This document shows positions 4,227 to 15,431 of a DNA stretch of 64,000 nt, piece by piece; the stretch's first letter is position 1, and each line of letters starts with the position of its first letter. This stretch comes from Stutzerimonas degradans. GTDB lineage: Bacteria; Pseudomonadota; Gammaproteobacteria; Pseudomonadales; Pseudomonadaceae. Made by a program: the position numbers and the translations under genes. The notes below the pieces were generated by a model. That model was not told where the DNA came from. It did no database searches and saw only the letters and a program-made list of their open reading frames with translations. The stretch is from the NCBI RefSeq assembly GCF_024448505.1, contig NZ_JAMOHV010000005.1, forward strand, positions 124,001-188,000, given 5' to 3'.

Positions 4227-4302
4227 CGGCTCCGGCCCGTCGCTAGTGGTTGAACTCGGCACCTAAGCAGATCGCTGTGACAGTCGGGTTACGCACCCCG
4301 GG

Positions 4303-4317: not shown

Positions 4318-4421
4318 GCTCAATTGCACGTCGCGGGGGCAATCGAAGGCATTTGGTTTGCTGGCAGTCGCGCTCAACGCCGTGGTAGCCCGCGACGCCG
4401 CTCTTGATCGTCGGCCAGACA

Positions 4422-4436
4422 GGTCAATTCGGCTCA
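4422..4436 (+). repeat. 15-bp direct repeat, copy 2 (candidate regulator site)
   Basis: This is the second exact copy of GGTCAATTCGGCTCA. It lies 54 bases upstream of the Pho box, a reasonable position for an activator acting on the receptor promoter. Confidence 0.6.
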
Positions 4437-4490
4437 AAAGTGGGCAGAAACAGCCTATTACGCCGCTGATTCGCGCTTGCCGCACCCGCG

Positions 4491-4508
4491 CTGTCACAGA
4501 ACTGCCAC
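4491..4508 (+). promoter_or_regulatory. Pho box (PhoB binding site) upstream of TonB receptor
   Basis: CTGTCAC-AGAA-CTGCCAC matches the two 7-base repeats with a 4-base A-rich spacer known for PhoB sites (consensus CTGTCAY N4 CTGTCAY), with one difference in the second repeat. A weak -10-like TACCGT lies 10 bases downstream (4519-4524), which is the spacing of PhoB-activated promoters that lack a -35 element. It predicts induction of the locus by phosphate starvation. Confidence 0.72.
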
Positions 4509-4573
4509 GGTGCCTGCCTACCGTCCGCTGCAGTTCCGGGATCGGCCCGGATGGGTTCCGGAGAGGGGACGGG

Positions 4574-7054
4574 ATGAGCGCTCATTGCTACCAACAGCGA
4601 AAACAGCGATTCAGGATCAGCGCACTGGCGCTGGCGATTGCCGCCAGCTCGGCAGCGCTGGCGCAGGAGGCAGGTGTCGAGCACGTCGAAGTGGTCGGCC
4701 AGGCGGTGAGCATCGACAAGGCGCTCAAGGAACAGCGCAGTTCCGACAGCGTGAAGAGCGTGGTGCATGCCGATGGCATCGGCCAGCTGCCGGACGACAA
4801 TGCCGCCGAGGCGCTGCAGCGCATTCCGGGGCTGTCGGTGGAGCGCGATCAGGGCGAGGGCCGCTTCGTCAGCGTGCGCGGTATTGCGCCGGACCTGAAC
4901 AGCGTGACCATCAACGGCACCCTGGTGCCCTCGCCGGAAGGCGACCGGCGGGCCGTGGCGCTCGATGTACTGCCGTCGGAACTGGTGCAGTCGCTGTCGG
5001 TGGTCAAGACGCTCACCCCGGACATGGACGCCAACTCCCTGGGCGGCACCATCGAAGTGGAAAGCCTGTCGGCCTTCGATCATGACGGTCTGTTCTACAG
5101 CATCAGCGGCGAAGGCAGCCACGATGACAACGTCGGCAAGACCAGCCCGAAATTCTCCGGCGCCTTCAGCAACCGTTTCAGCCTGGGCGATGGTGTCGAC
5201 AACTTCGGCGTGGCCGCGGCGCTGAGCTGGCAGGAGCGCGATTTCGGTTCGGACAACGTCGAAACCGGCGGCAAATGGGATTTTGAGGACGGCGCGCGGC
5301 TCGAAGAGCTGGAACAGCGCGATTATGAGATCACCCGCGAGCGCACCGGCTTCGGCCTCAACTTCGACTACAAGCCGGATGATCTCAGCAGCTACTATCT
5401 GCGCACGCTCTACAGCCGCTTCAAGGACACCGAGACGCGCAACGCCGCCGGGGTCGCCTTCGAGGAGGCGCAGCAGGCCGGCGAGCGCGGTGACGCCGAG
5501 GGCTGGCGCGAACTCAAATCGCGCGAGGACACCCAGACCATCCAATCCTATGTGTTCGGTGGTGAACGCCTGTTTGGCCTGTGGACGCTGAGCGGCCAGA
5601 CCGGCTACAGCGAGTCGCGCGAGCGCAACCCCGGCGGTATCGCCGGTGCCGTGTTCGAGGGCGACTTCAGCGATGCGGGCTTTTCCAGCACGCGCAAGCC
5701 GCGGCTGGCCGTCGAATCGGGTTTCTACGATCCGTCCCGCTTCGAGCTTGACGAGGTGGAGTGGGAGAAGAGCGATGCCCGCGACCGCGAGAAAAACATC
5801 CGCCTGGATCTGGCGCGCGATTACGACCTTAAGGGCTACGCGGCGCAGCTCAAGTTCGGCGGCAAGCTCAGCCGCCGCGACAAGTCAAACGACAGCGAGA
5901 TCTGGGTCTACGACGATTTCGATGACCTGACCTTGGCCGATTTCCAGGCTGGACGCGTCGATTACGGCCTCGGTCGCTTCGGTCCGGGTATCAGTGCATC
6001 GGGCATCAAGGGCCTGATCGGTGGGTTCGACGCCAGCGAGTTCTATGACGAGGAACAGTCGCGCATCAACGACTTCGACATGCGCGAGGACATCGATGCC
6101 GCCTATGTGATGAACACCCTGGATCTGGACCGCTGGCGCTTCATCGCGGGCATGCGCTACGAGGGCACCGACTTCAGTGCCAAGGGTACGGGTGTGCGTG
6201 ACGGGGTTTTCGAGACGATATCCAGCAGCCGACGCTACGAGCACTGGCTGCCGGGGTTGCACGCTCGCTACCAGCTGAGCCCCAGCACGCAGTTGCGTGC
6301 AGCCTGGACCAACAGCGTGGTGCGACCGACGTTCGGCCAGCTGGCGCCCGGCTTCGTCATCGAGGACGACGAGGCGGAGTTCGGCAATCCGAACCTCAAA
6401 CCGCTGGAGTCGGTGAACTACGATCTGGGCATCGAGCACTACATGGGCCGGGCCGGCGCCGTCTCGGCGTTCCTGTTCTACAAGGACATCGACAACTTCA
6501 TCTACAACACCGACCTGGCCGGAACCGGCCAGTGGGCGAACTTCGCCGAGGCGCTGAGCTACGAGAACGGCAGTGGCGCCACGCTCTATGGCATCGAGCT
6601 GGCCTATTCGCAGAAATTCGACTGGCTGCCGGCCCCTTGGAACGGCCTGCTGTTGGGCGCCAACGCCACGTTCAGTCGCTCCGATGCGGATATCGAAGGA
6701 CAGGGCGCCAAGCGCAGCATCGACCTGCCGAATCACTCCGATACCGTCGGCAACCTCATGATTGGCTGGGAGAACGAGCGCTTCAACACGCGCCTGGCGG
6801 CCAACTACAAGTCCGAGTACCTGGCCGAGGTTTCCGGCGTCGACGATGCCGCGCATGACCTGTATGTGGACGGCCAGCTGTTCGTCGATTTCAAGGCCGG
6901 CTACTTCATCACGCCCAGCCTGCAGCTGACCTTCGAGGCGCTGAATCTGACCGACGAAGCCTATTTCGTCTACGCCGGCCGCCAGCGCTACAACGCCCAG
7001 TACGAAGAGTACGGCCCGACCTACAAGCTCGGCCTGACGCTCACCCATTTCTGA
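4574..7054 (+). CDS. TonB-dependent outer-membrane receptor (TIGR01782-like)
   Basis: The 826-residue outer-membrane receptor has a signal peptide of about 30 residues ending SAALA/QEAG. A short TonB-box-like stretch (EHVEVVG) is followed by the plug domain (about 55-175), which includes NAAEALQRIPGLSVERDQGEG, SVRGIAPDLNSVTING and LPSELVQSLSVVKTLTPDMD. The remainder is a 22-strand-type barrel ending in the aromatic Phe expected of barrel proteins. Plug and barrel resemble the Xanthomonas/Caulobacter-type family often linked to complex carbohydrates and to phytase genes, not classical siderophore receptors. I start it at ATG 4574, where a purine-rich GGAGAGGGG sequence precedes it; the longer frame from 4250 would swallow the Pho box. 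It leads the phytase/motor operon, suggesting import of phytate, a metal-phytate complex or a product. The substrate is not proven. Confidence 0.9.
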   Translation: MSAHCYQQRKQRFRISALALAIAASSAALAQEAGVEHVEVVGQAVSIDKALKEQRSSDSVKSVVHADGIGQLPDDNAAEALQRIPGLSVERDQGEGRFVSVRGIAPDLNSVTINGTLVPSPEGDRRAVALDVLPSELVQSLSVVKTLTPDMDANSLGGTIEVESLSAFDHDGLFYSISGEGSHDDNVGKTSPKFSGAFSNRFSLGDGVDNFGVAAALSWQERDFGSDNVETGGKWDFEDGARLEELEQRDYEITRERTGFGLNFDYKPDDLSSYYLRTLYSRFKDTETRNAAGVAFEEAQQAGERGDAEGWRELKSREDTQTIQSYVFGGERLFGLWTLSGQTGYSESRERNPGGIAGAVFEGDFSDAGFSSTRKPRLAVESGFYDPSRFELDEVEWEKSDARDREKNIRLDLARDYDLKGYAAQLKFGGKLSRRDKSNDSEIWVYDDFDDLTLADFQAGRVDYGLGRFGPGISASGIKGLIGGFDASEFYDEEQSRINDFDMREDIDAAYVMNTLDLDRWRFIAGMRYEGTDFSAKGTGVRDGVFETISSSRRYEHWLPGLHARYQLSPSTQLRAAWTNSVVRPTFGQLAPGFVIEDDEAEFGNPNLKPLESVNYDLGIEHYMGRAGAVSAFLFYKDIDNFIYNTDLAGTGQWANFAEALSYENGSGATLYGIELAYSQKFDWLPAPWNGLLLGANATFSRSDADIEGQGAKRSIDLPNHSDTVGNLMIGWENERFNTRLAANYKSEYLAEVSGVDDAAHDLYVDGQLFVDFKAGYFITPSLQLTFEALNLTDEAYFVYAGRQRYNAQYEEYGPTYKLGLTLTHF

Positions 7055-7065
7055 CCCTTGCCGTC

Positions 7066-7087
7066 CCGTCACCCACTCGGGTGACGG
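7066..7087 (+). other. Perfect hairpin between receptor and phytase genes
   Basis: The 9-bp arms CCGTCACCC (7066-7074) and GGGTGACGG (7079-7087) have a 4-base loop and no T-run. It is more likely an mRNA stabiliser or partial attenuator that sets different receptor and phytase levels than a full terminator. Confidence 0.6.
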
Positions 7088-7114
7088 CGGGCGGCTGCCT
7101 GACTGGAACACTTC

Positions 7115-9013
7115 ATGTACGTACATCTGCAACGAAAACTCCTGCTGGCCACCTGCATCGCGCTGGCCGCCTGCCAAAGCACGGGTGAGCGCGCCGCGGC
7201 TACCTTGTCCGTCGCCGCGGCCGCACCCGCTGTGATCGAGGCCGCACGGCTGCTGGGCACGGACGGGTTCGACCGTGTCGAACTGGACGGCCAGGGCCTG
7301 CGACTGCTCGACCCACAGGGGCAGGTGCGGGCCAACCTCCCTGGACGTTTCGAGGGACTCGATCACCGCGAGAGTGACGAGGGGCTGCTGCTGGCGACCG
7401 TCGAGCGCAAACGCCAGCAGGCGATGCTCGTCGGGCTGACTCGCGGGGGGCAGTGGAGCGCACCGCTGTTTCTGCCCAAGACGACTTTCGCCATCGAAGG
7501 GCTGTGCCTGTTCCGCGATGCCGGTCGCAACGACTTTCTGTTCCTCGTCGGTGAGGAAGGCGTCGGCGAGCAATGGCTGGTTGGCGCGGACGGCCAACTG
7601 CTGGGCGAGGCCCGTCGTGTGCGCGGCCTGAGCCTGCCGCCGGGCAGCAGTCATTGTCAGGTCGACGATGCGGCCGGGCGGCTGTTCGTCAACGAGGAAG
7701 CGGTCGGCCTCTGGACCTATCCCGCCAACGCCGAGGCGCCGCTGGAACGGGTTCCGGTGGACCTGCGCGCTCCCTTTGGTGGGCTTGCAGAGGGCGCCGC
7801 AGGCATGGCGCTGGTGCCCGGTGGCGTGCTGCTGCTGGATGCCGAAGCCGCGGCGCTGCACCTTTATCAGGAGCAGGCCGATGGCTGGCAGGCCAGTCAG
7901 GTATTGGCGCTGAAGGGCTTCGACGAGCCTGAGCAGATCAGCGCGCGAGCGACGCCCGAGGGCCTGGCGCTGCTGCTGGTGGATGATCGCGGTAGCCGCC
8001 AGGCTGCTCTCGATTGGACGCCACGGCCGGTCGCGCGCAAGCCGCCGTTGCCCTTGCTGCCGGCCGAGGTCGAGAGCGGCCCGGTACCGAGCCTGGGCGA
8101 TGCGGCTGACGACCCGGCCATCTGGGTCAACCGCAGCGAACCGGGCGTAAGCCGGGTGCTGGGCACCGACAAGAAGGGCGGGCTGGTGGTGTATGACCTG
8201 CAGGGCCGCCAGGTGCAGAGCCTGCCAGTAGGGCGGCTGAACAACGTCGATGTACGCGACGGCTTCCGTCTCGGTCAGCGCCAGGTCGATCTGGCGGTGG
8301 CGAGCAATCGTGATCGCAACAGCCTGCATCTGTTCGCCATTGATCCGGCCAACGGCCGGCTGGAGAACATCGGCCAGATCGCCACGCCGCTCGCGGACAT
8401 CTACGGACTTTGCCTGTTCAAGGATCGCCAGGGCGCCATCCATGCCTTCGCCAACGACAAGGACGGCACCTTCCTGCAGTACCGCCTCGATGGGCGCAGT
8501 GGCAAGCCCCGGGGTGAGCTGGTACGGCGCTTCAAGGTCGACAGCCAGCCGGAAGGCTGTGTGGCGGACGACCGCCGCGAGCGATTGTTCATCGGCGAGG
8601 AAGACGTTGCTGTGTGGACGCTGGGTGCCGCGGCCAACGCGCCGACCGCTCTGGAAAAGGTCATCGGCGTGGGCGAAAGCGTGCACGACGATATCGAAGG
8701 GCTGGCGCTGTACCACGGCCAGCGCGCCGACTATCTGGTGATCTCCAGCCAGGGCAACGACAGCTACGTGGTGCTGGATGCCACGGCGCCCTATGCCGTG
8801 CGTGGTGCGTTCCGCATCGGCCTCAATGCTGCGCACGGCATCGACGGCGCCTCGGAAACCGATGGTCTGGAAGTCACCTCGGTCAACCTCGGCGGGCCGT
8901 GGAGCCAGGGGCTGTTGGTAGTGCAGGACGGGCGCAAGCGGATGCCCGAGGGCACGCAGAACTACAAGTACCTGCCGTGGACCGCGGTGGCCGATGCCCT
9001 GGGCCTGGAATAG
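7115..9013 (+). CDS. Two-domain beta-propeller phytase, lipoprotein
   Basis: Beta-propeller (BPP) phytases release phosphate from myo-inositol hexakisphosphate using calcium. The 632-residue product starts with a lipoprotein signal, with lipobox LAAC at Cys20 followed by Gln, so outer-membrane sorting is expected. Residues from about 40 to 310 form an incomplete first propeller without the hallmark sites. Residues from about 325 to 630 form the full catalytic domain with DAADDPAIWVN (329-339) and NNVDVRDGF (376-384), the two signature calcium/substrate motifs of BPPs. Tandem BPPs with an incomplete first domain are known, and that domain is thought to help binding. It sits directly after a TonB receptor gene, a linkage reported for BPP genes in Proteobacteria. 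The start ATG at 7115 is set by the signal peptide; its ribosome site is weak (TGGAA). Confidence 0.9.
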   Translation: MYVHLQRKLLLATCIALAACQSTGERAAATLSVAAAAPAVIEAARLLGTDGFDRVELDGQGLRLLDPQGQVRANLPGRFEGLDHRESDEGLLLATVERKRQQAMLVGLTRGGQWSAPLFLPKTTFAIEGLCLFRDAGRNDFLFLVGEEGVGEQWLVGADGQLLGEARRVRGLSLPPGSSHCQVDDAAGRLFVNEEAVGLWTYPANAEAPLERVPVDLRAPFGGLAEGAAGMALVPGGVLLLDAEAAALHLYQEQADGWQASQVLALKGFDEPEQISARATPEGLALLLVDDRGSRQAALDWTPRPVARKPPLPLLPAEVESGPVPSLGDAADDPAIWVNRSEPGVSRVLGTDKKGGLVVYDLQGRQVQSLPVGRLNNVDVRDGFRLGQRQVDLAVASNRDRNSLHLFAIDPANGRLENIGQIATPLADIYGLCLFKDRQGAIHAFANDKDGTFLQYRLDGRSGKPRGELVRRFKVDSQPEGCVADDRRERLFIGEEDVAVWTLGAAANAPTALEKVIGVGESVHDDIEGLALYHGQRADYLVISSQGNDSYVVLDATAPYAVRGAFRIGLNAAHGIDGASETDGLEVTSVNLGGPWSQGLLVVQDGRKRMPEGTQNYKYLPWTAVADALGLE

Positions 9014-9077
9014 TCATCTTCCGGTAACGCGGCCGTCATTCACTTACAGCTGCCCGGCCGGGCAGGAGGAAGCAGCG

Positions 9078-9794
9078 ATGCAACATGCAGTCGAACAGAT
9101 GTCGATCTGGGGGCTGGTCAGCGAGGCCAGCGTGGTGGTTCAGGCCGTCATGGCGATTCTGGTGCTGGCGTCGGTGGCCAGCTGGTATCTGATCATCCAG
9201 CGCAGCGTGGTGCTTAGGCGCAGTGAGCGCCTGCTGCGCGAGTTCCTGCGTCAGTTCCGCCAGAGCGCTGATCTGGCCCAGCTGCAGCGCGACGTCGAGC
9301 ACCAGGCGCGGTTGCCGGAGGCTGCGCTGCAGCGCATCTTCCGCGATGGTCTGCAGATGTTCAGCCAGCTGCAGCGCCAGCCCGGCCTTGCCCCGCAGAC
9401 GCTCGGCGAAGCGGTGGATCGCAGCCTCTATGTGGCGGTCGCCGAGCAGGAGGAGCGTCTGGACCACGGCCTGCAGGCACTCGCCACCATCGGCTCGGTG
9501 AGCCCGTACATCGGGTTGTTCGGCACCGTGTGGGGGATCATGAATGCCTTTATCGGGCTTTCCCAGGTACAGCAGGTCACCCTTGCCACCGTGGCGCCCG
9601 GCATTGCCGAAGCGCTGATCGCCACGGCGATCGGCCTGTTCGCGGCGATTCCGGCGGTGATCGCCTACAACCGCTTCGCCGCCCGCGGTCAAGCGCTCGC
9701 CGGCCGCTACTACGCCTTCGCCAACGAACTGCAAGCCCGTCTGTTGCCGCGACTGCATGCCAGCGCGCCGAGCTTCGCCGCCGCCGCGGCCTGA
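9078..9794 (+). CDS. TolQ/ExbB-type proton-channel subunit
   Basis: The 238-residue inner-membrane protein of the MotA/TolQ/ExbB family forms the proton-driven motor of a Ton or Tol system. The first transmembrane segment lies near residues 18-40, and TM2/TM3 near 130-205. The strongly conserved core (ATIGSVSPYIGLFGTVWGIM, then APGIAEALIATAIGLFAAIPAVIAYNR) is closer to TolQ than to typical ExbB. I start it at ATG 9078, preceded by a strong AGGAGGA; the longer frame from 8994 overlaps the phytase. It is followed 11 bases later by a TolR/ExbD-like gene. Location in the phytase operon argues that it powers the receptor and is not the housekeeping Tol system. Confidence 0.92.
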   Translation: MQHAVEQMSIWGLVSEASVVVQAVMAILVLASVASWYLIIQRSVVLRRSERLLREFLRQFRQSADLAQLQRDVEHQARLPEAALQRIFRDGLQMFSQLQRQPGLAPQTLGEAVDRSLYVAVAEQEERLDHGLQALATIGSVSPYIGLFGTVWGIMNAFIGLSQVQQVTLATVAPGIAEALIATAIGLFAAIPAVIAYNRFAARGQALAGRYYAFANELQARLLPRLHASAPSFAAAAA

Positions 9795-9805
9795 GGAGAA
9801 CGCCC

Positions 9806-10279
9806 ATGCTAGTCAGGCCTCAGCGCAAGCACGGTCCGAAGGCGGAAATGAACGTGGTGCCCTACATCGACGTCATGCTGGTGTTGCTGGTGATCTTCAT
9901 GGTCACCGCACCGATGCTGGTGCAGGGCGTGAACATCGAGCTGCCCAAGGTCGCCGCCGAGGCGCTGCCGACGGAGAACGAGCGCAAGCTGCTCACCCTC
10001 TCGGTCAAGGCGGACGGCAGCTTCTACTGGAACCTGGGCAGCGAGATCGACATCGAGCAACAGGCGGACACGGCCGTGGAGCTGGCGGAGATGCGCGCCA
10101 AGGTGGCGTCGCTCATCGCCGTGCACGGCGATGCCCAGGTCTATGTTCGTGCCGACGATGCCGCGGACTACGGGCGCGTGGTCGCCGCCATCGCCGAGTT
10201 GCAGCGCGGCGGGGTGGTCAACCTCGGGCTGATCACTGAAGCGCCGGATACGCTGGCGCCGGGGGCTGGACAGCCATGA
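9806..10279 (+). CDS. TolR/ExbD-type motor subunit
   Basis: The 157-residue single-pass inner-membrane protein has one transmembrane helix at about residues 18-40. It contains the essential Asp in NVVPYIDVMLVLLVIFMVTAP, followed by a periplasmic domain ending GVVNLGLITEAP. The VTAPMLVQGVNIELP stretch and the end of the domain resemble TolR more than ExbD. The start ATG at 9806 is preceded by GAGGAG overlapping the end of the previous gene. Its TGA overlaps the next start (ATGA at 10276), so translation is coupled to the TonB-like gene. Confidence 0.92.
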   Translation: MLVRPQRKHGPKAEMNVVPYIDVMLVLLVIFMVTAPMLVQGVNIELPKVAAEALPTENERKLLTLSVKADGSFYWNLGSEIDIEQQADTAVELAEMRAKVASLIAVHGDAQVYVRADDAADYGRVVAAIAELQRGGVVNLGLITEAPDTLAPGAGQP

Positions 10280-11073
10280 ATGCGGCGCTGATGGACGCGG
10301 CGATGCTGCGCGAACCTGCGCCGTCCCACGCCTCGCAAGGGCTGGCGCTGCTGGGGGCGATCGGCCTGCACCTGGCGTTGGGTGCAGCAGTGCTGCTGAA
10401 TAGCTGGACGCCGACATTCGAGGCACCGAGCAATGCGCAAATCCTGCGCACCCAGCTGGTGAGCCTGCCGGTGCCGGTCGAGCCGCAAGCTCTGCCCGAA
10501 ACGCCGGTCGAGCCGCCCCCCGAAGCTGCCGCACCGGAGCCGGTGGCGGAGCCCACGGCACCGACCGAAGCCGAGCTGGCCTTCAAGCGGGCCGAGCAGA
10601 AGCGGGTCGCCGAAGCGGCCCGCCAACAGCAGTTGCGCCAGCAGCGCGAGACCGTCGAGCGCGAGCGGCAGGCCCGCGAGCGTGAACAGCAGCGTCTGGC
10701 TCAGGAGGCCGAACGCACTGCCGAGGCCCGGCGCCGAATCGAAGCCGAGCGAGCCCGTGTCGCGGCGGCCGAACAGGCGCGGCGCGAGGCCGCCGCCGCG
10801 GCGGACCGGCAGTACCTGCCCATCGCCAAGGCGCCGCCGGTGTATCCGCAGCGCGCGCTGGACTCGGGCGTGCAGGGCGAATGCACGGTCAGTTACGACG
10901 TCGATCCGACCGGTCGCGTGGTGTCGCCGCAAGTGGCGGGGCAGTGCCATCCGCTGTTCATCCGCCCCTCGCTCGAGGCGGCCAAGCGTTTCCGCTACCA
11001 CCCGCGCATCGTCGACGGCCAGGCCGTGACGGTGCGTGGCGTACAGAACACCTTTCACTACCGCATCGAATGA
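10276..11073 (+). CDS. TonB protein with TolA-like coiled-coil stalk
   Basis: The 265-residue periplasm-spanning energy transducer has one N-terminal membrane anchor (about residues 22-43), a Pro/Glu-rich stretch (about 70-100) and a long highly charged helix (about 103-180, rich in Arg, Glu, Gln and Ala) like TolA domain II. It ends in a TonB_C domain (about 185-265: PPVYPQRALDSGVQGE, then VSYDVDPTGRV, and FRYHPR). Two Cys residues in the C-terminal domain may form a disulfide. It combines a Tol-type stalk with a Ton-type receptor-contact domain and is encoded with a TolQ/TolR-like pair. It probably couples the proton motive force to the receptor at 4574-7054. Confidence 0.88.
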   Translation: MNAALMDAAMLREPAPSHASQGLALLGAIGLHLALGAAVLLNSWTPTFEAPSNAQILRTQLVSLPVPVEPQALPETPVEPPPEAAAPEPVAEPTAPTEAELAFKRAEQKRVAEAARQQQLRQQRETVERERQAREREQQRLAQEAERTAEARRRIEAERARVAAAEQARREAAAAADRQYLPIAKAPPVYPQRALDSGVQGECTVSYDVDPTGRVVSPQVAGQCHPLFIRPSLEAAKRFRYHPRIVDGQAVTVRGVQNTFHYRIE

Positions 11074-11094
11074 CGCGTTCAGGATTCAATCGAT

Positions 11095-13056
11095 ATGAAA
11101 CAGGATTTTCGCGACTTTCACGCCGCCCTCGCGGCGCTCGACGATCAGTCGATCAATCCGGGCCGCCAGCCGAGCCTGAGCGATCTGGTCGACCACAGCC
11201 GGCGCGGGCTGCTCAAGGGCAGCCTGGGCCTGGCGGGCATGGCCTTTCTCGGCGGCGGGCTGTCCGCTTGTGGAGCGGTTGCGGCACGCAGTCGGCTGCT
11301 GGGTTTCGAGTCCGTTCCGGCGCAGCTGGATCCGGCCTTCGACAGCGTGCAGGTACCGCCGGGCTATCGTGCGCGGGTGTTCTTTTCCTGGGGCGACCGG
11401 GTGGAGACCGACGCACCGCAATGGAAAGCCGATGCCAGCGACGACTGGCAGGCACAACTGCTGCAGGCCGGGGACAATCACGACGGCATGCACTTTTTCC
11501 CGTTCACGGACGCGCCGACCGAGCACGGTTTGCTGGCGATCAACCATGAGTACGTCAATCCGCCGCTGCACCCCGACGGCATGAGCCTGGTGGATGGCCG
11601 CCGGCCGCTGGCAGAGGTGCGCAAGGAGCAGGCGGCGCATGGCGTCAGCATCATCGAGGTGCGCAAGGATGCCTCCGGCCAGTGGCAGCGGGTCCATCCG
11701 TCGCGCTACAACCGGCGCATCAGCACGCTGACGCCGATGGCCGTCGGCGGCCCGCTGGCCGGGCACGAACTGCTCCGAACCGCCGCCGATCCGAGCGGCA
11801 CCCGCATCATTGGCACGCTGAACAACTGTTCCAGCGGCTTCACGCCGTGGGGCACCTACCTGACCTGCGAGGAAAACTGGCACAACTACTTCCTCAATCG
11901 CGATGCCGAGGACCTGGCCGCACGTACCGCGCACGCCCGCTACGGCGTTGCCGGCGGTGAGCGCAGCAAGCTCTACGGCTGGGAAAGTGCCGACGAGCGC
12001 TTCGATGCCACACCCGATGCCAGCCTGCCGCACGGCGGCTATGTCAACGAACCGAACCGTTTCGGCTGGGTGGTGGAGATCGATCCCTTCGATCCGCAGG
12101 CGCAGCCGGTCAAACGCACCGCATTCGGTCGCTACTGCCGCGAATGCGCGGTGTTGTCGCTGGGGGAGGACGGACGCATGGCGTTCTATTCCGGCGACGA
12201 CTCGCGCGGCGAGTACATCTACAAGTTCGTCCCCAGCGGCCGCTATGTACCCGGCGCGGATCAGCAGAATCGCCAGCTGCTCGATGACGGCACGCTCTAC
12301 GTTGCGCGTTTCGACGCCGATGGCAGCGGTCGCTGGCTGGCGCTGGTTCACGGGCAGAACGGCCTGACCGCCGAGCATGGCTTCCCCAGCCAGGCCGAGG
12401 TGCTGCTTAACGCGCGCGCCGCAGCCGACCGGCTCGGCGCAACGCCCATGGACCGCCCGGAATGGGTCGCGGTGCATCCTCGTACGCGCGAGGTCTACGT
12501 CACCCTGACCAACAACGATCAACGCGGGGACAAGGCGGCGGTCGACAAGGCGAACCCGCGCCCGCAGAACCTGCACGGGCAGATCCTGCGCTGGCGTGAG
12601 GCGGGAGGCGACCCCGCGGCGACGCGCTTCGAGTGGGAAATTTTCCTGCTCGCTGGCGAGCGAAAGGGCGCGCGCGGTGCGGACGGCAAACCCGTGCCTG
12701 CACATCTGACCGGCACCATCGAGGGCGATGCGTTCTCCTCGCCGGATGGTCTGGCCTTCGATGCCGATGGCCGGCTGTGGATACAGACCGACTACGGCGA
12801 CGACGAACCGGCGATGCAGGTCATGGGGACCAACCAGCTGCTATGCGCCGATCCCGGCACGCGTGAGGTGCGTCGCTTTCTGGTCGGGCCGCGTGGCTGC
12901 GAGATCACCGGCATCACCTGGAGCCCGGACTACCGCGCCATGTGGATCAACGTGCAGCACCCCGAGCTGAGCTTCCCGGCCAGTGATGGTCAGTCGCGAC
13001 CGCGCTCTTCGACGGTGCTGATTACGCGGGACGATGGTGGCGTGATCGGCACCTGA
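11095..13056 (+). CDS. PhoX-family alkaline phosphatase, Tat-exported
   Basis: PhoX enzymes are calcium/iron phosphomonoesterases made during phosphate starvation. The 653-residue product has a twin-arginine signal (SRRGLLKG near 35-42) followed by a hydrophobic run. The run ends LSAC, a possible lipobox with Cys59, so it could be a Tat lipoprotein. Family hallmarks include HFFPF, INHEYVNP, the metal-site stretch FTPWGTYLTCEENWHNYF whose Cys and Glu are expected metal ligands, and EWVAVHPRTREVYVTLTNN. The start ATG at 11095 has CAGGA upstream, and it lies 21 bases after the TonB-like gene, so it is probably in the same operon. It could dephosphorylate phytate breakdown products. No strong terminator follows. 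Confidence 0.9.
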   Translation: MKQDFRDFHAALAALDDQSINPGRQPSLSDLVDHSRRGLLKGSLGLAGMAFLGGGLSACGAVAARSRLLGFESVPAQLDPAFDSVQVPPGYRARVFFSWGDRVETDAPQWKADASDDWQAQLLQAGDNHDGMHFFPFTDAPTEHGLLAINHEYVNPPLHPDGMSLVDGRRPLAEVRKEQAAHGVSIIEVRKDASGQWQRVHPSRYNRRISTLTPMAVGGPLAGHELLRTAADPSGTRIIGTLNNCSSGFTPWGTYLTCEENWHNYFLNRDAEDLAARTAHARYGVAGGERSKLYGWESADERFDATPDASLPHGGYVNEPNRFGWVVEIDPFDPQAQPVKRTAFGRYCRECAVLSLGEDGRMAFYSGDDSRGEYIYKFVPSGRYVPGADQQNRQLLDDGTLYVARFDADGSGRWLALVHGQNGLTAEHGFPSQAEVLLNARAAADRLGATPMDRPEWVAVHPRTREVYVTLTNNDQRGDKAAVDKANPRPQNLHGQILRWREAGGDPAATRFEWEIFLLAGERKGARGADGKPVPAHLTGTIEGDAFSSPDGLAFDADGRLWIQTDYGDDEPAMQVMGTNQLLCADPGTREVRRFLVGPRGCEITGITWSPDYRAMWINVQHPELSFPASDGQSRPRSSTVLITRDDGGVIGT

Positions 13057-13125
13057 GGCTGTTGTGGCGCGGCCCGCGCGATGTGGCTAGAGGCTTGTAA
13101 CGGTTTCGTTGGCCCGAGATCGCCG

Positions 13126-13686
13126 TCAGGCGGCCGTCCAGAAGAACGGCAGCACCATCATCCAGACGATGACGGCCGCGCCGAACGCCGTCTGGGTGAT
13201 GGCGGCCGCCTCCAGGCGGTCGTCCACCCGGCACAGCGAACAGGTGCCCTGGTAGAGCAGGACGCAGCACGAGGCCAGCGCGCTGAGCGGTAGCACCGTG
13301 TTCAGAAACGGGTTGTTCACCAGCAGGCCGAGAGATGACAGCCATAGCGGCACGCAGGCGATAGTGGCTACCAGATAAGCTTCGGCATAGGTCACGTCGT
13401 GGCTGCAGGCGTGGGCGACGTGTTTGATCAGCCAGCCCATCACGAACACCGAAAATATTTCGCCACCGAAGAACAGGCCGGCCGTGCCCGTCGAGGGCTG
13501 GATCTGGAAGATGGGCAGGTAGGCGCTCAGCGGTGCGTCCAGCAGGGCGATCATCGTCGGCGGCAACAGCGACAGCGGCACGATGAATGCCCAGAGCCGG
13601 ATTCGAGGCGGCAGTTGATCGCTCGTCCAGTCGGAAGGGGCGAGTGCACTGCACAACAGCATGCGCATGAGGACAAGGAGATTCAT
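13126..13686 (-). CDS. Yip1-family integral membrane protein
   Basis: The 186-residue protein has about five hydrophobic helices and Yip1-like features (RLWAFIVPLSLLPP near the N-terminus, FSVFVMGWLIKHVAHACSHDVTYAEAYLVATIACVPLWLS in two spans). I start it at ATG 13686, preceded by AAAGGAA; the frame extends back to 14151 only as an overlap with marR. It diverges from the MarR gene across a short AT-rich operator region, so it is likely repressed or controlled by that regulator. Bacterial Yip1 proteins have no settled function. Confidence 0.82.
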   Translation of the reverse strand: MNLLVLMRMLLCSALAPSDWTSDQLPPRIRLWAFIVPLSLLPPTMIALLDAPLSAYLPIFQIQPSTGTAGLFFGGEIFSVFVMGWLIKHVAHACSHDVTYAEAYLVATIACVPLWLSSLGLLVNNPFLNTVLPLSALASCCVLLYQGTCSLCRVDDRLEAAAITQTAFGAAVIVWMMVLPFFWTAA

Positions 13687-13730
13687 GACGTTCCTTTCTG
13701 GGGCGGACGGAATCGGCTGGGCGGTTCCGG

Positions 13731-13766
13731 TGAAATATATATCGTGGTGTGATATATATCGTGCAC
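13731..13766. promoter_or_regulatory. Repeated AT-rich operator between yip1-like and marR-like genes
   Basis: ATATATATCGTG occurs twice in the same direction at 13735-13746 and 13752-13763, 17 bases apart. The second copy sits on the palindrome GATATATATC (13751-13760). The divergent genes leave only this short intergenic space, so it is the natural MarR binding site and overlaps both promoters. Confidence 0.65.
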
Positions 13767-13800
13767 AATGCTGCGAAAAGGTCAACGAGGAAATCGTCTC

Positions 13801-14199
13801 TTGGAAAAATCCGATTACCAGCGGCTGGCGCATTTCCGTCATCGCCTGCGCCGATTCCTGCGCAACAGCGAGTTGCTGTGCCTGGAAAACGGTGCGACGG
13901 CGCTGCAGTACCAGCTGCTGCTCCAGATTCGTGGCGCTTCGGCGCGTGATTGGGCGACGGTTGGTGAGCTCGCCGAACAGCTGCAATCGAAACATAACAG
14001 CGTCGTGGCGCTGATCGACCGCTGCGAAAAAATGGGCTTGGTCGAGCGAAAGGCGGGGCGGGAAGACCGGCGTCAGGTTGAGGTTCACCTGCTGCCTGCC
14101 GGCGAGGAGCTGCTGGCGCGCATCGCCGAATTGCATCAGGAAGAGGTGCAACTGCTGCGTGCGGAGTTCAGCCTGCCGGGTTGGGACAGGGCCGAATAA
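13801..14199 (+). CDS. MarR-family transcriptional regulator
   Basis: This is a winged-helix regulator of 132 residues if read from TTG 13801, or 143 from ATG 13768. I prefer the TTG because ACGAGGAAA lies 9 bases upstream and the following EKSDYQRLAHFRHRLRRFL looks like a natural N-terminus; the upstream ATG lies 4 bases after the operator with no ribosome site. The HTH lies near VGELAEQLQSKHNSVVALIDRCEKMGLVERKAG and the wing in REDRRQVEVHLLPAG. It is followed by a P450 gene 53 bases on and diverges from the Yip1-like gene, so it probably senses an organic compound handled by the P450. Confidence 0.85.
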   Translation: MEKSDYQRLAHFRHRLRRFLRNSELLCLENGATALQYQLLLQIRGASARDWATVGELAEQLQSKHNSVVALIDRCEKMGLVERKAGREDRRQVEVHLLPAGEELLARIAELHQEEVQLLRAEFSLPGWDRAE

Positions 14200-14252
14200 T
14201 TCATCACCACCGAGGCGGTCCGATTATCGAGAGGTCCGCAAGAGGAGTTGCT

Positions 14253-15431
14253 ATGGAGAATAAATCAGCCGATTGGGATCCGAGATCCGAGGCGGTACTC
14301 AAGGACCAGTTGGCCACCTACGACGACATGCGCCGTCGCTGCCCGGTGGCAACCAGTCGTTACGGCTACACCTCGCTGTTCCGACACGCGGATGTCATGC
14401 ACGTATTGATGGACCACGAGACCTACAGCAACGCCGTCTCGCGTTTCCCCTCCGTGCCCAACGGCATGGACCCGCCGGAGCATACGGCGTACCGGCGGCT
14501 CATCGAGCCTTACTTCGAGCCGCAGCAGATGGAAGCCTTCGCGCCGGTGTGCCGGGAGGTTGCGGTACGGCTGGTGCAGGCCTTGCCGGAGCAGGCGGAT
14601 GTCGAGCTGATGGCGGACTTTGCGCAGATTTTCGCGTTGCAGATTCAGTGCGCCTGGCTGGGCTGGCCGGTGGAGCTGCACGAGCCGCTGCGCCTGTGGA
14701 CGCTGAAGAACCAGGCGGCGACGTTGGCCAGGGACGAAGCGGCGATGAGTGCGGTTGCGCTAGAATTCGACGGCTACATCAAGGATCTGCTCACGGCGCG
14801 CCGCAACGCCGGTAGCGCGGCGCCAGACGACGTGACCACCCGTCTGCTGCGCGATCAGGCCTTGGGCAGACCGCTGACCGACGATGAAATCGTCAGCATC
14901 CTGCGTAACTGGACGGTCGGCGAGCTGGGTACCATTGCCGCCTCGATCGGCATCCTCGTGCATTACCTCGCCGGCCATGCCGCGTTGCAGCAGCAGTTGC
15001 GCGAGCAGCCGGCGCTGCTGCCGGCCGCCATCGACGAGATACTGCGCATCCACGCGCCGCTCGTTATGAACCGGCGGGTCACCACCAGAGAGGTCACGCT
15101 GGGTGAGCGCACGTTGGCGGCCGGTACGCGTCTGGCGCTCATCTGGGCATCGGCCAATCGCGACGAAGCGGTGTTCGGCGATCCCGATGAGTTTCGTCTC
15201 GACCGCGAGCCGCAGCTGAATCTGCTGTATGGCGCCGGCATCCATGTCTGTCCCGGAGCCCCGCTTGCCAGGCTGGAGCTGCGCGTTGTGATGGAGGAGC
15301 TGCTGGGGCGCACCCGCCGAATGGCGCTGCTGGCGGATCAGCAACCGGTAAAGGCGTTCTTTCCCGCCAGCGGGTTTTCTTCGCTACCCCTGCATATCGA
15401 GAAGGCCGAGAACGCTACCCCGCACGGCTGA
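14253..15431 (+). CDS. Cytochrome P450
   Basis: The 392-residue soluble bacterial P450 (heme monooxygenase type) has an I-helix stretch WTVGELGTIAASIGI with the conserved Thr, an ExxR motif in AAIDEILRIHAP, and a heme-binding loop LLYGAGIHVCPGAPLARLEL whose Cys is the axial heme ligand. The loop starts LYG where most members have FG. I chose ATG 14253 because AGAGGAG is 5 bases upstream. No ferredoxin or reductase gene is nearby, so redox partners must come from elsewhere. The substrate is unknown, and regulation by the preceding MarR gene is likely. Confidence 0.92.
   Translation: MENKSADWDPRSEAVLKDQLATYDDMRRRCPVATSRYGYTSLFRHADVMHVLMDHETYSNAVSRFPSVPNGMDPPEHTAYRRLIEPYFEPQQMEAFAPVCREVAVRLVQALPEQADVELMADFAQIFALQIQCAWLGWPVELHEPLRLWTLKNQAATLARDEAAMSAVALEFDGYIKDLLTARRNAGSAAPDDVTTRLLRDQALGRPLTDDEIVSILRNWTVGELGTIAASIGILVHYLAGHAALQQQLREQPALLPAAIDEILRIHAPLVMNRRVTTREVTLGERTLAAGTRLALIWASANRDEAVFGDPDEFRLDREPQLNLLYGAGIHVCPGAPLARLELRVVMEELLGRTRRMALLADQQPVKAFFPASGFSSLPLHIEKAENATPHG

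Follow-up and report, generated by a model that had tools for sequence, protein, structure and literature searches.

How does an outer-membrane receptor that stands next to a phytase obtain the energy for import, and can it bring a motor of its own? These questions are raised by a locus within a 64,000-nucleotide stretch of Stutzerimonas degradans DNA (contig NZ_JAMOHV010000005.1, positions 124,001 to 188,000; hereafter the window). The genome is a 4.0 Mb draft near Stutzerimonas nitrititolerans (phytase half 93% identical to that of locus L014). Six genes, all on the plus strand, encode a TonB-dependent receptor (4574-7054), a beta-propeller phytase (7115-9013), a motor with its force transducer, here named TolQ' (9078-9794), TolR' (9806-10279) and TonB' (10276-11073), and the alkaline phosphatase PhoX (11095-13056). 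An earlier note on this DNA had described this order on one strand, with short spacers; the order was borne out by the coordinates and by family searches, and the spacers measure 60, 64, 11, -4 and 21 bases. We consider it fairly probable that the locus is a mobile phytate-uptake cassette of five genes, with PhoX as an optional addition and with its own force generator, where substrate, energisation and regulation are inferred. The motor would then be a division-type machine that was probably rebuilt to drive a probable phytate receptor.

Origin of the motor and of its transducer

The ring protein TolQ' (238 aa) and the shaft protein TolR' (157 aa) exceeded the NCBIfam cut-offs for TolQ (TIGR02796, 246.5 bits, cut-off 221) and TolR (TIGR02801, 131 bits, cut-off 127.3), while both fell under those for ExbB and ExbD (TolQ' scored 181 bits against exbB, cut-off 206.2). 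The pair thus corresponds to the TolQ and TolR of a Tol-Pal system and not to the ExbB-ExbD of a TonB system; the six genes and the four neighbours scanned contain neither TolB nor Pal. TolQ' and TolR' are 56% identical to the TolQ and TolR of the same genome, which are encoded in a separate tolQRA cluster apart from the phytase locus. Compared with these, the two TolQ segments FGTVWG and IATAIGL and the membrane Asp of TolR (Asp22 in TolR'), all with presumed functional roles, are unchanged.

In the first trees, with TolQ rows labelled by a YbgC or TolB neighbour, all 24 locus TolQ' sequences formed one clade (support 98) beside Pseudomonadaceae TolQ (90), and all 24 TolR' sequences formed one clade (90) beside Pseudomonadaceae TolR (98). 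The pairing with Pseudomonadaceae TolQ was found again in a TolQ-only bootstrap tree (99/94), and in a joined TolQ'+TolR' tree, which leaves out L158 and L186 for the long TolR/ExbD branches they had formed in the first TolR tree, the locus clade (98/99) stood next to Pseudomonadaceae TolQR (97/100). A rival tree, in which all TolQR stay in one group and the locus sequences fall outside it, was rejected by the joined alignment in the approximately unbiased (AU) test (p-AU 0.006), the rows of the AU tests being chosen subsets (38 for TolQ and 36 for the joined alignment, from 72 each in the first trees). TolQ' proteins of Oxalobacteraceae, Acinetobacter, Methylophaga and Brenneria fell inside the Pseudomonadaceae-linked clade, which fits horizontal spread. 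By these relationships, the motor is not an ExbB-ExbD pair and derives from a copy of Pseudomonadaceae tolQ-tolR. The earlier note had called it TolQ/TolR-like; it is indeed of Tol type, and can further be described as TolQ/TolR-derived, with TonB' as a hybrid of TolA and TonB.

TonB' (265 aa) is composed of a TolA-like membrane helix (residues 18-42, with His32), a predicted helix of 80 residues (98-177) and a TonB tip with a conserved Cys pair (182-265), all within 10276-11073 on the plus strand. The C-terminal domain is that of TonB (Pfam TonB_C, 55.9 bits, cut-off 24.6), and not TolA domain III: the match to tolA_full (45 bits) stays under its cut-off of 59.45. In a fold search of the tip, TonB structures led (6i97, 9e-7) and TolA tips followed with E values of 0.19 or worse; a profile of the tip did not match the genome's own TolA. 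In a short tip tree (83 columns, with a long-branch warning), the nearest outside tips were of TonB2 type, from the gammaproteobacterial genomes G348, G139, G537, G086 and G474 (support 96). In four of these five (all but G086) they belong to ExbB-ExbD-TonB sets with a repeat protein, and G348, G537 and G474 also hold motor-less phytase loci (L100, L109 and L126).

The membrane half has other kin. When its profile was run against 82 excerpts, Pseudomonadaceae TolA took ranks 1, 3, 4 and 6 (34.5-25.0 bits), the genome's own TonB1 ranked 62, and eight TonB2-type proteins ranked between 57 and 75 (at most 5.6 bits). Among the 18 'TonB' rows of this panel, 7 or more represent wrong reading frames (L185, L189, L234, L235, L236, L238 and L246) and another, L240, is probably a TolA; one TolA row, L217, also looks wrong. 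A Mann-Whitney test on the panel was discarded for these rows, and ranks alone were used. From His32 to the following Thr, TonB' can be aligned to the own TolA without gaps, and the gene order TolQ'-TolR'-TonB' equals tolQ-tolR-tolA. His32 and the Cys pair of the tip are invariant in 17 rows; among TonB2-type proteins, three (L253, L254, L258) are without a membrane His and two (L255, L260) have one at the helix end. The stalk was modelled as a single helix over residues 98-177 (block pLDDT 91-98 over most of its length), and its content of charged residues, Gln and Ala is 79%, compared with 83% in the own TolA and 37% in the own TonB2. With the tip nearest to TonB2-type proteins and the membrane half nearest to Pseudomonadaceae TolA, the two halves have different nearest kin. 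In terms of sequence, then, a TonB-type tip sits on a membrane half that is not common to the nearest relatives of the tip. The TolA origin of this membrane half is well supported but falls short of proof.

Compared with known machines, the locus shares with Tol-Pal (TolQ-TolR-TolA) the TolQ and TolR families, the gene order, the TolA-like membrane half and the long helix, but differs in the TonB-type tip that replaces TolA domain III, in its receptor and phytase neighbours, and in the absence of TolB and Pal noted above. Dedicated TonB systems, among them the TonB2/TtpC type, use ExbB-ExbD. Another dedicated TonB is HasB of Serratia (PMC12204202; here and below, papers are cited for the available portion of their text). 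The locus resembles such systems in reserving a TonB for one or few receptors and in the affinity of its tip, and departs from them in its copied TolQR motor and the TolA-like membrane half of its transducer. Domain-swap chimeras of TolA and TonB from Escherichia coli still transmit force (PMC10666116); these are laboratory constructs, whereas TonB' would be a natural, conserved and widely spread form with its own motor.

Occurrence of the gene set and its link to the receptor

The earlier note had proposed a search for the six-gene order in other genomes and would have taken its absence from all of them as a refutation; the order was found. Our main sample consisted of the best 80 of 563 confirmed matches to the catalytic half of the phytase, taken from named genomes and biased to close relatives. 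Phytase, TolQ', TolR' and TonB' occurred together in 75 of these 80 loci. A receptor was visible in 73 of the 75 (in three of these, L028, L086 and L088, it was cut or split), and the other two (L067 and L071) begin inside the phytase; L020 ends after TolQ'. PhoX followed TonB' in 38 of the 75 motor loci, was absent from 34, and allowed no call in 3. The six-gene unit suggested by the earlier note therefore holds for the receptor, the phytase and the private motor, while PhoX is not part of the core. In one of the loci, L088 of Stutzerimonas stutzeri RM2 (6369-15049), frames are split in receptor, phytase and PhoX, as a result of either decay or sequencing errors.

Two broader samples gave a phytase in 11 of 369 genomes of the class and in 43 of 398 genomes of the phylum, with our own genome in both. 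From 48 of these genomes, 49 neighbourhoods were taken (the own genome and the weak phytase matches G209 and G746 were left out), and the motor adjoined the phytase in all nine other loci of the own family versus none of 40 outside it, two of which (L096 and L125) end just after the phytase. The samples overlap in three loci (L117 is L045, L266 is L015 and L270 is L070). Motor loci outside the family are known to us from Acinetobacter, Methylophaga, Oxalicibacterium, Herminiimonas, Brenneria and Ectothiorhodospira. In two others of the 40 (L099 and L109), receptor, phytase and PhoX stand without a motor, as if the motor had been inserted into a set of genes that existed before it.

The link between receptor and TonB' was followed in 59 genomes of the family. 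Receptors over the cut-off of TIGR01782 were present in 17 of them, one in each (at most 13 candidates were scored per genome). TonB' tips of at least 93 bits were present in the identical 17 genomes, on the same contigs and strands as the receptor, and the next best tips reached no more than 53.3 bits. As the 59 genomes are related, the 17 co-occurrences are not independent events. Five of the 17 loci were inspected; all showed the full order, four of them with PhoX. A further genome of the same genus, G791, holds a PhoX (77% identical) beside a broken piece of a TonB' tip, with about 47 residues matched and a stop inside (L265, G791:C1:264000-283000, positions 7635-9753). Receptor, phytase, TolQ' and TolR' were not found in this 19 kb stretch, and no TIGR01782 receptor exceeded the cut-off anywhere in the G791 genome. 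This remnant can be read as a natural record, the scar of a joint loss. Taken together, the comparisons support the view of a single recurring unit made up of receptor, phytase and private motor. TonB' would energise the outer-membrane receptor, to which it is linked in the same 17 of 59 genomes.

In a phytase tree, which leaves out L096 and L104, the state of the motor requires two changes instead of one, since loci of the Massilia type, which lack a motor, are the partners of the P. citronellolis/duriflava group. The paired loci are L082, L085 and L115 (with motor) and L089, L091 and L092 (without motor). This hints at an exchange of partners or at loss of the motor (one gain and one loss).

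Possible phosphate control, proposed mechanism and alternatives

The Pho box that the earlier note had placed upstream of the receptor is present as a direct repeat, CTGTCAC-N4-CTGCCAC (CTGTCACAGAACTGCCAC), at 4491-4508 on the plus strand. It ends 65 bases 5' of the receptor ATG at 4574 (the open frame itself begins at 4250) and has three mismatches to the consensus that we assume for the box. By single-sequence statistics, it is not significant: 12 matches were seen in the window against 18.9 expected, shuffling of the upstream region gave P 0.19, and 901 matches with at most three mismatches occur in the genome, against 468 for the reversed control. Loci were compared instead. In 68 of 74 loci, the distance between the best plus-strand site and the plug motif is the same, and 58 of the 74 have at most three mismatches. 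Sites of this quality occur in the 70-base bin of the box in 53 of 67 loci (the window and L089-L093 left out), whereas each of 14 other bins holds one in 0-3 of the 67. Perfect boxes are present in L073, L074, L080, L083 and L093, all Methylophaga records, with 289-294 bases between box and plug motif. The loci are related by descent, and the counts should not be read as probabilities; still, it is telling that another family has perfect boxes in this position, and the comparison convinces where the single site is weak. The conserved site speaks for phosphate control, with PhoB as the putative activator. There are parallels elsewhere: low phosphate raises the Flavobacterium phytase and its neighbouring receptor (Fjoh_1367/1368, PMC8115612), and the PhoB regulon of Caulobacter includes a phytase and receptors (PMC11208175). 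A further candidate box at 9022-9039, in the spacer that separates phytase and TolQ', is not claimed, as the best sites in 76 loci vary in place and quality.

The following mechanism may be proposed. Under low phosphate, PhoB would act on the box and turn the operon on. The receptor would bind phytate, perhaps in its calcium form. TolQ'-TolR' would draw on the proton gradient, TonB' would be anchored to this motor by its TolA-like helix with His32, and the stiff helical stalk would convey the force to the TonB tip, which would grip the receptor so that the plug opens. In the periplasm, the outer-membrane phytase lipoprotein would strip phosphates from the imported phytate, PhoX or other phosphatases would complete the hydrolysis, and free phosphate would be taken up through Pst; an inner-membrane importer of inositol phosphates is not encoded by the six genes or the four neighbours scanned.

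As for history, an ancestor of Pseudomonadaceae whose other receptors belong to different classes would have acquired a receptor-phytase(-PhoX) pair from elsewhere in the gammaproteobacteria. A copy of tolQRA, combined with a TonB2-type tip, would have become the driver of the incoming receptor, and the cassette would then have passed to Acinetobacter, Methylophaga, Oxalobacteraceae, Brenneria and Ectothiorhodospira. In other words, the Tol-Pal motor was, as seems reasonably likely, copied whole (tolQ-tolR-tolA), its TolA tip was exchanged for a TonB tip suiting the foreign receptor, and the product spread over gamma- and betaproteobacteria. It has been argued that TolA descends from a TonB paralogue, and some helical TonB stalks have been reported (PMC12204202, in the portion cited). 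The change proposed here runs the opposite way and would have produced a natural TolA-TolA-TonB transducer, which, as part of the same joint reading, we likewise hold to be somewhat probable.

Several points weigh against this reading. The TolQ-only AU test left the rival tree unrejected (p-AU 0.12), and the AU question was posed after the first trees had been seen. By eye, the stalk sequence resembles a helix less in L073 of Methylophaga, L078 of Acinetobacter and L084. Four of the 80 loci (L089-L092) have no motor, and the existence of motor-less receptor-phytase pairs shows that such a pair can in principle do without a motor of its own. In regulation, 16 of the 74 loci have, in the stretch searched, only sites with four or five mismatches, including L078, L079 and L087 of Acinetobacter. 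Furthermore, no evidence of PhoBR control was reported for phytases in two strains, P. stutzeri DSM4166 and P. fluorescens SBW25 (PMC5082522, as far as the available text goes); the abstract names exoproteomics only for these two strains, an analysis that could miss a lipoprotein, and the strains may or may not carry the phytase-motor locus. The phytase PSPPH_2990 of P. syringae pv. phaseolicola, which may be a different gene from that of the locus, rose in bean leaf extract (PMC2803797), and this may mean control by the substrate.

The membrane half of TonB' might alternatively stem from another TonB with a membrane histidine that converged on TolA. The matched region is short, and one TonB (L245) ranked fifth in the panel with 25.9 bits, between TolA rows, which is a further point against a TolA origin. 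Yet the ranks of Pseudomonadaceae TolA among the 82 excerpts compared with rank 62 for TonB1, the gapless match from His to Thr in the own TolA and the order shared with tolQ-tolR-tolA make convergence unlikely, though it deserves some weight. It might also be that the motor is redundant, with a housekeeping TonB able to drive the receptor and TolQ'R'-TonB' merely carried along. None of the 40 phytase loci sampled outside the family has a motor next to its phytase, and the genome has two further TonB genes besides TolA. On the other hand, the receptor class and TonB' share the same 17 of 59 genomes, the scar in G791 records a joint loss, and 75 of the 80 loci, from several families, have retained the motor. 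If the motor were redundant, losses of the motor alone would be expected at times; the motor-less L089, L091 and L092, which sit beside motor loci in the phytase tree, could represent such a loss. Redundancy appears distinctly improbable to us.

Other alternatives concern the place of action. The phytase lipobox fits either face of the outer membrane, so the enzyme could work at the cell surface, with the receptor importing a lower inositol phosphate or a metal-phytate complex; uptake of iron-phytate is, we presume, conceivable. Such a scheme is rather doubtful, given that the six genes and four neighbours scanned include neither an inner-membrane importer nor an iron gene, that the box is of phosphate type (Fur boxes were not searched for), and that PhoX stands next in 38 of 75 loci. 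Finally, TolQ'R' could serve as an additional Tol motor, keeping the outer membrane stable in phosphate starvation, as its nearest relatives are TolQ and TolR and the helical stalk is TolA-like. This is very improbable in view of the TonB-type tip, whose profile misses the own TolA, the lack of tolB and pal among the genes scanned, and the tie to the receptor in the same 17 of 59 genomes. The cassette with a rebuilt Tol motor is the reading we prefer.

Pairs of a phytase and a TonB receptor have been described in Citromicrobium JL354 (PMC3400609) and in Flavobacterium (Fjoh_1367/1368, PMC8115612); the pairing is the same, and the available portions of these papers mention no private motor. In P. 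aeruginosa, the PUMA3 region contains exbB2-exbD2 and the alkaline phosphatase PA0688 under control of an extracytoplasmic function (ECF) sigma factor (PMC2729926). It is similar in that motor genes occur in a region with a phosphatase, and differs in its ECF sigma factor and its gene order, with no phytase mentioned in the text available. Domains like SusD, the lid lipoprotein of SusCD-like systems, were absent from the six genes and four neighbours scanned. Among the literature matches listed, with subscription journals mostly outside, no description of a phytase-linked, Tol-derived motor was found; novelty is thus not proven. If the proposal holds, the locus offers a natural and conserved counterpart of the laboratory TolA/TonB swaps, and evolved parts could be used to test what decides the compatibility of motor, stalk and tip. 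It also points to a way in which a foreign receptor can be put to use, namely by a driver assembled from parts at hand. Phytate is a main form of organic phosphorus in soil, and with a concrete set of genes that can be removed, the question of whether Gram-negative bacteria take up the intact molecule can be addressed.

Proteins and neighbouring features of the locus

The receptor (826 aa) belongs to the Xanth-Caul class (TIGR01782, NCBIfam 621.5 bits, cut-off 310) and contains the Pfam Plug and barrel domains. The phytase (632 aa; Pfam Phytase 2.5e-83, best stretch residues 317-630) starts with a lipobox, LAAC with Cys20, read by eye. The two domains and the motifs DAADDPAIWVN and NNVDVRDGF, all named in the earlier note, were recovered: the model has two beta halves, at residues about 40-300 and 310-632 (mean pLDDT 89), of which the N half (about 7232-8014, plus strand) is without phytase motifs and the C half (about 8042-9010, plus strand) is catalytic and matches Bacillus phytase 3amr (1.5e-64, residues 317-631). 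Residues that we take to be catalytic or calcium-binding are retained relative to 3amr, except for Glu (KEG) changed to Asp (KDG), so that the protein is a beta-propeller phytase by its fold and by its presumed active-site residues. PhoX (653 aa) has the PhoX domain (Pfam 2.9e-164), matches the solved PhoX structure 3zwu (1.1e-161), and carries the expected Tat signal (RR at residues 36-37) together with a lipobox (LSAC, Cys59), both read by eye.

Between receptor and phytase, a putative RNA hairpin without a T run lies at 7060-7095 on the plus strand (-29.6 kcal/mol, z -3.2) and may set the ratio of both products. Perfect stems of at least eight pairs occur in 10 of 79 loci, the window included; strong here and rare in relatives, the hairpin was dropped as a general feature. 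Promoter and terminator scans gave nothing exceeding chance, and no near copies of 4400-7400 were found in the plasmid collection. G+C ranges from 63 to 71% in bins of the locus and from 58 to 67% in flanking bins, with no clear island, and foreign origin by base composition was dropped. The genome as a whole holds one phytase, two PhoX genes and four TonB_C proteins (counting TolA), as well as TonB2-type and lpxK-linked motor genes, both named by eye. The TonB2-type set (L149, G000:C3:23000-29500) comprises ExbD, TonB and two ExbB-like matches, with one more open frame downstream. Upstream of the phytase locus, three tRNA genes (Arg, His and Leu) are located at 1770-2092 of the window.

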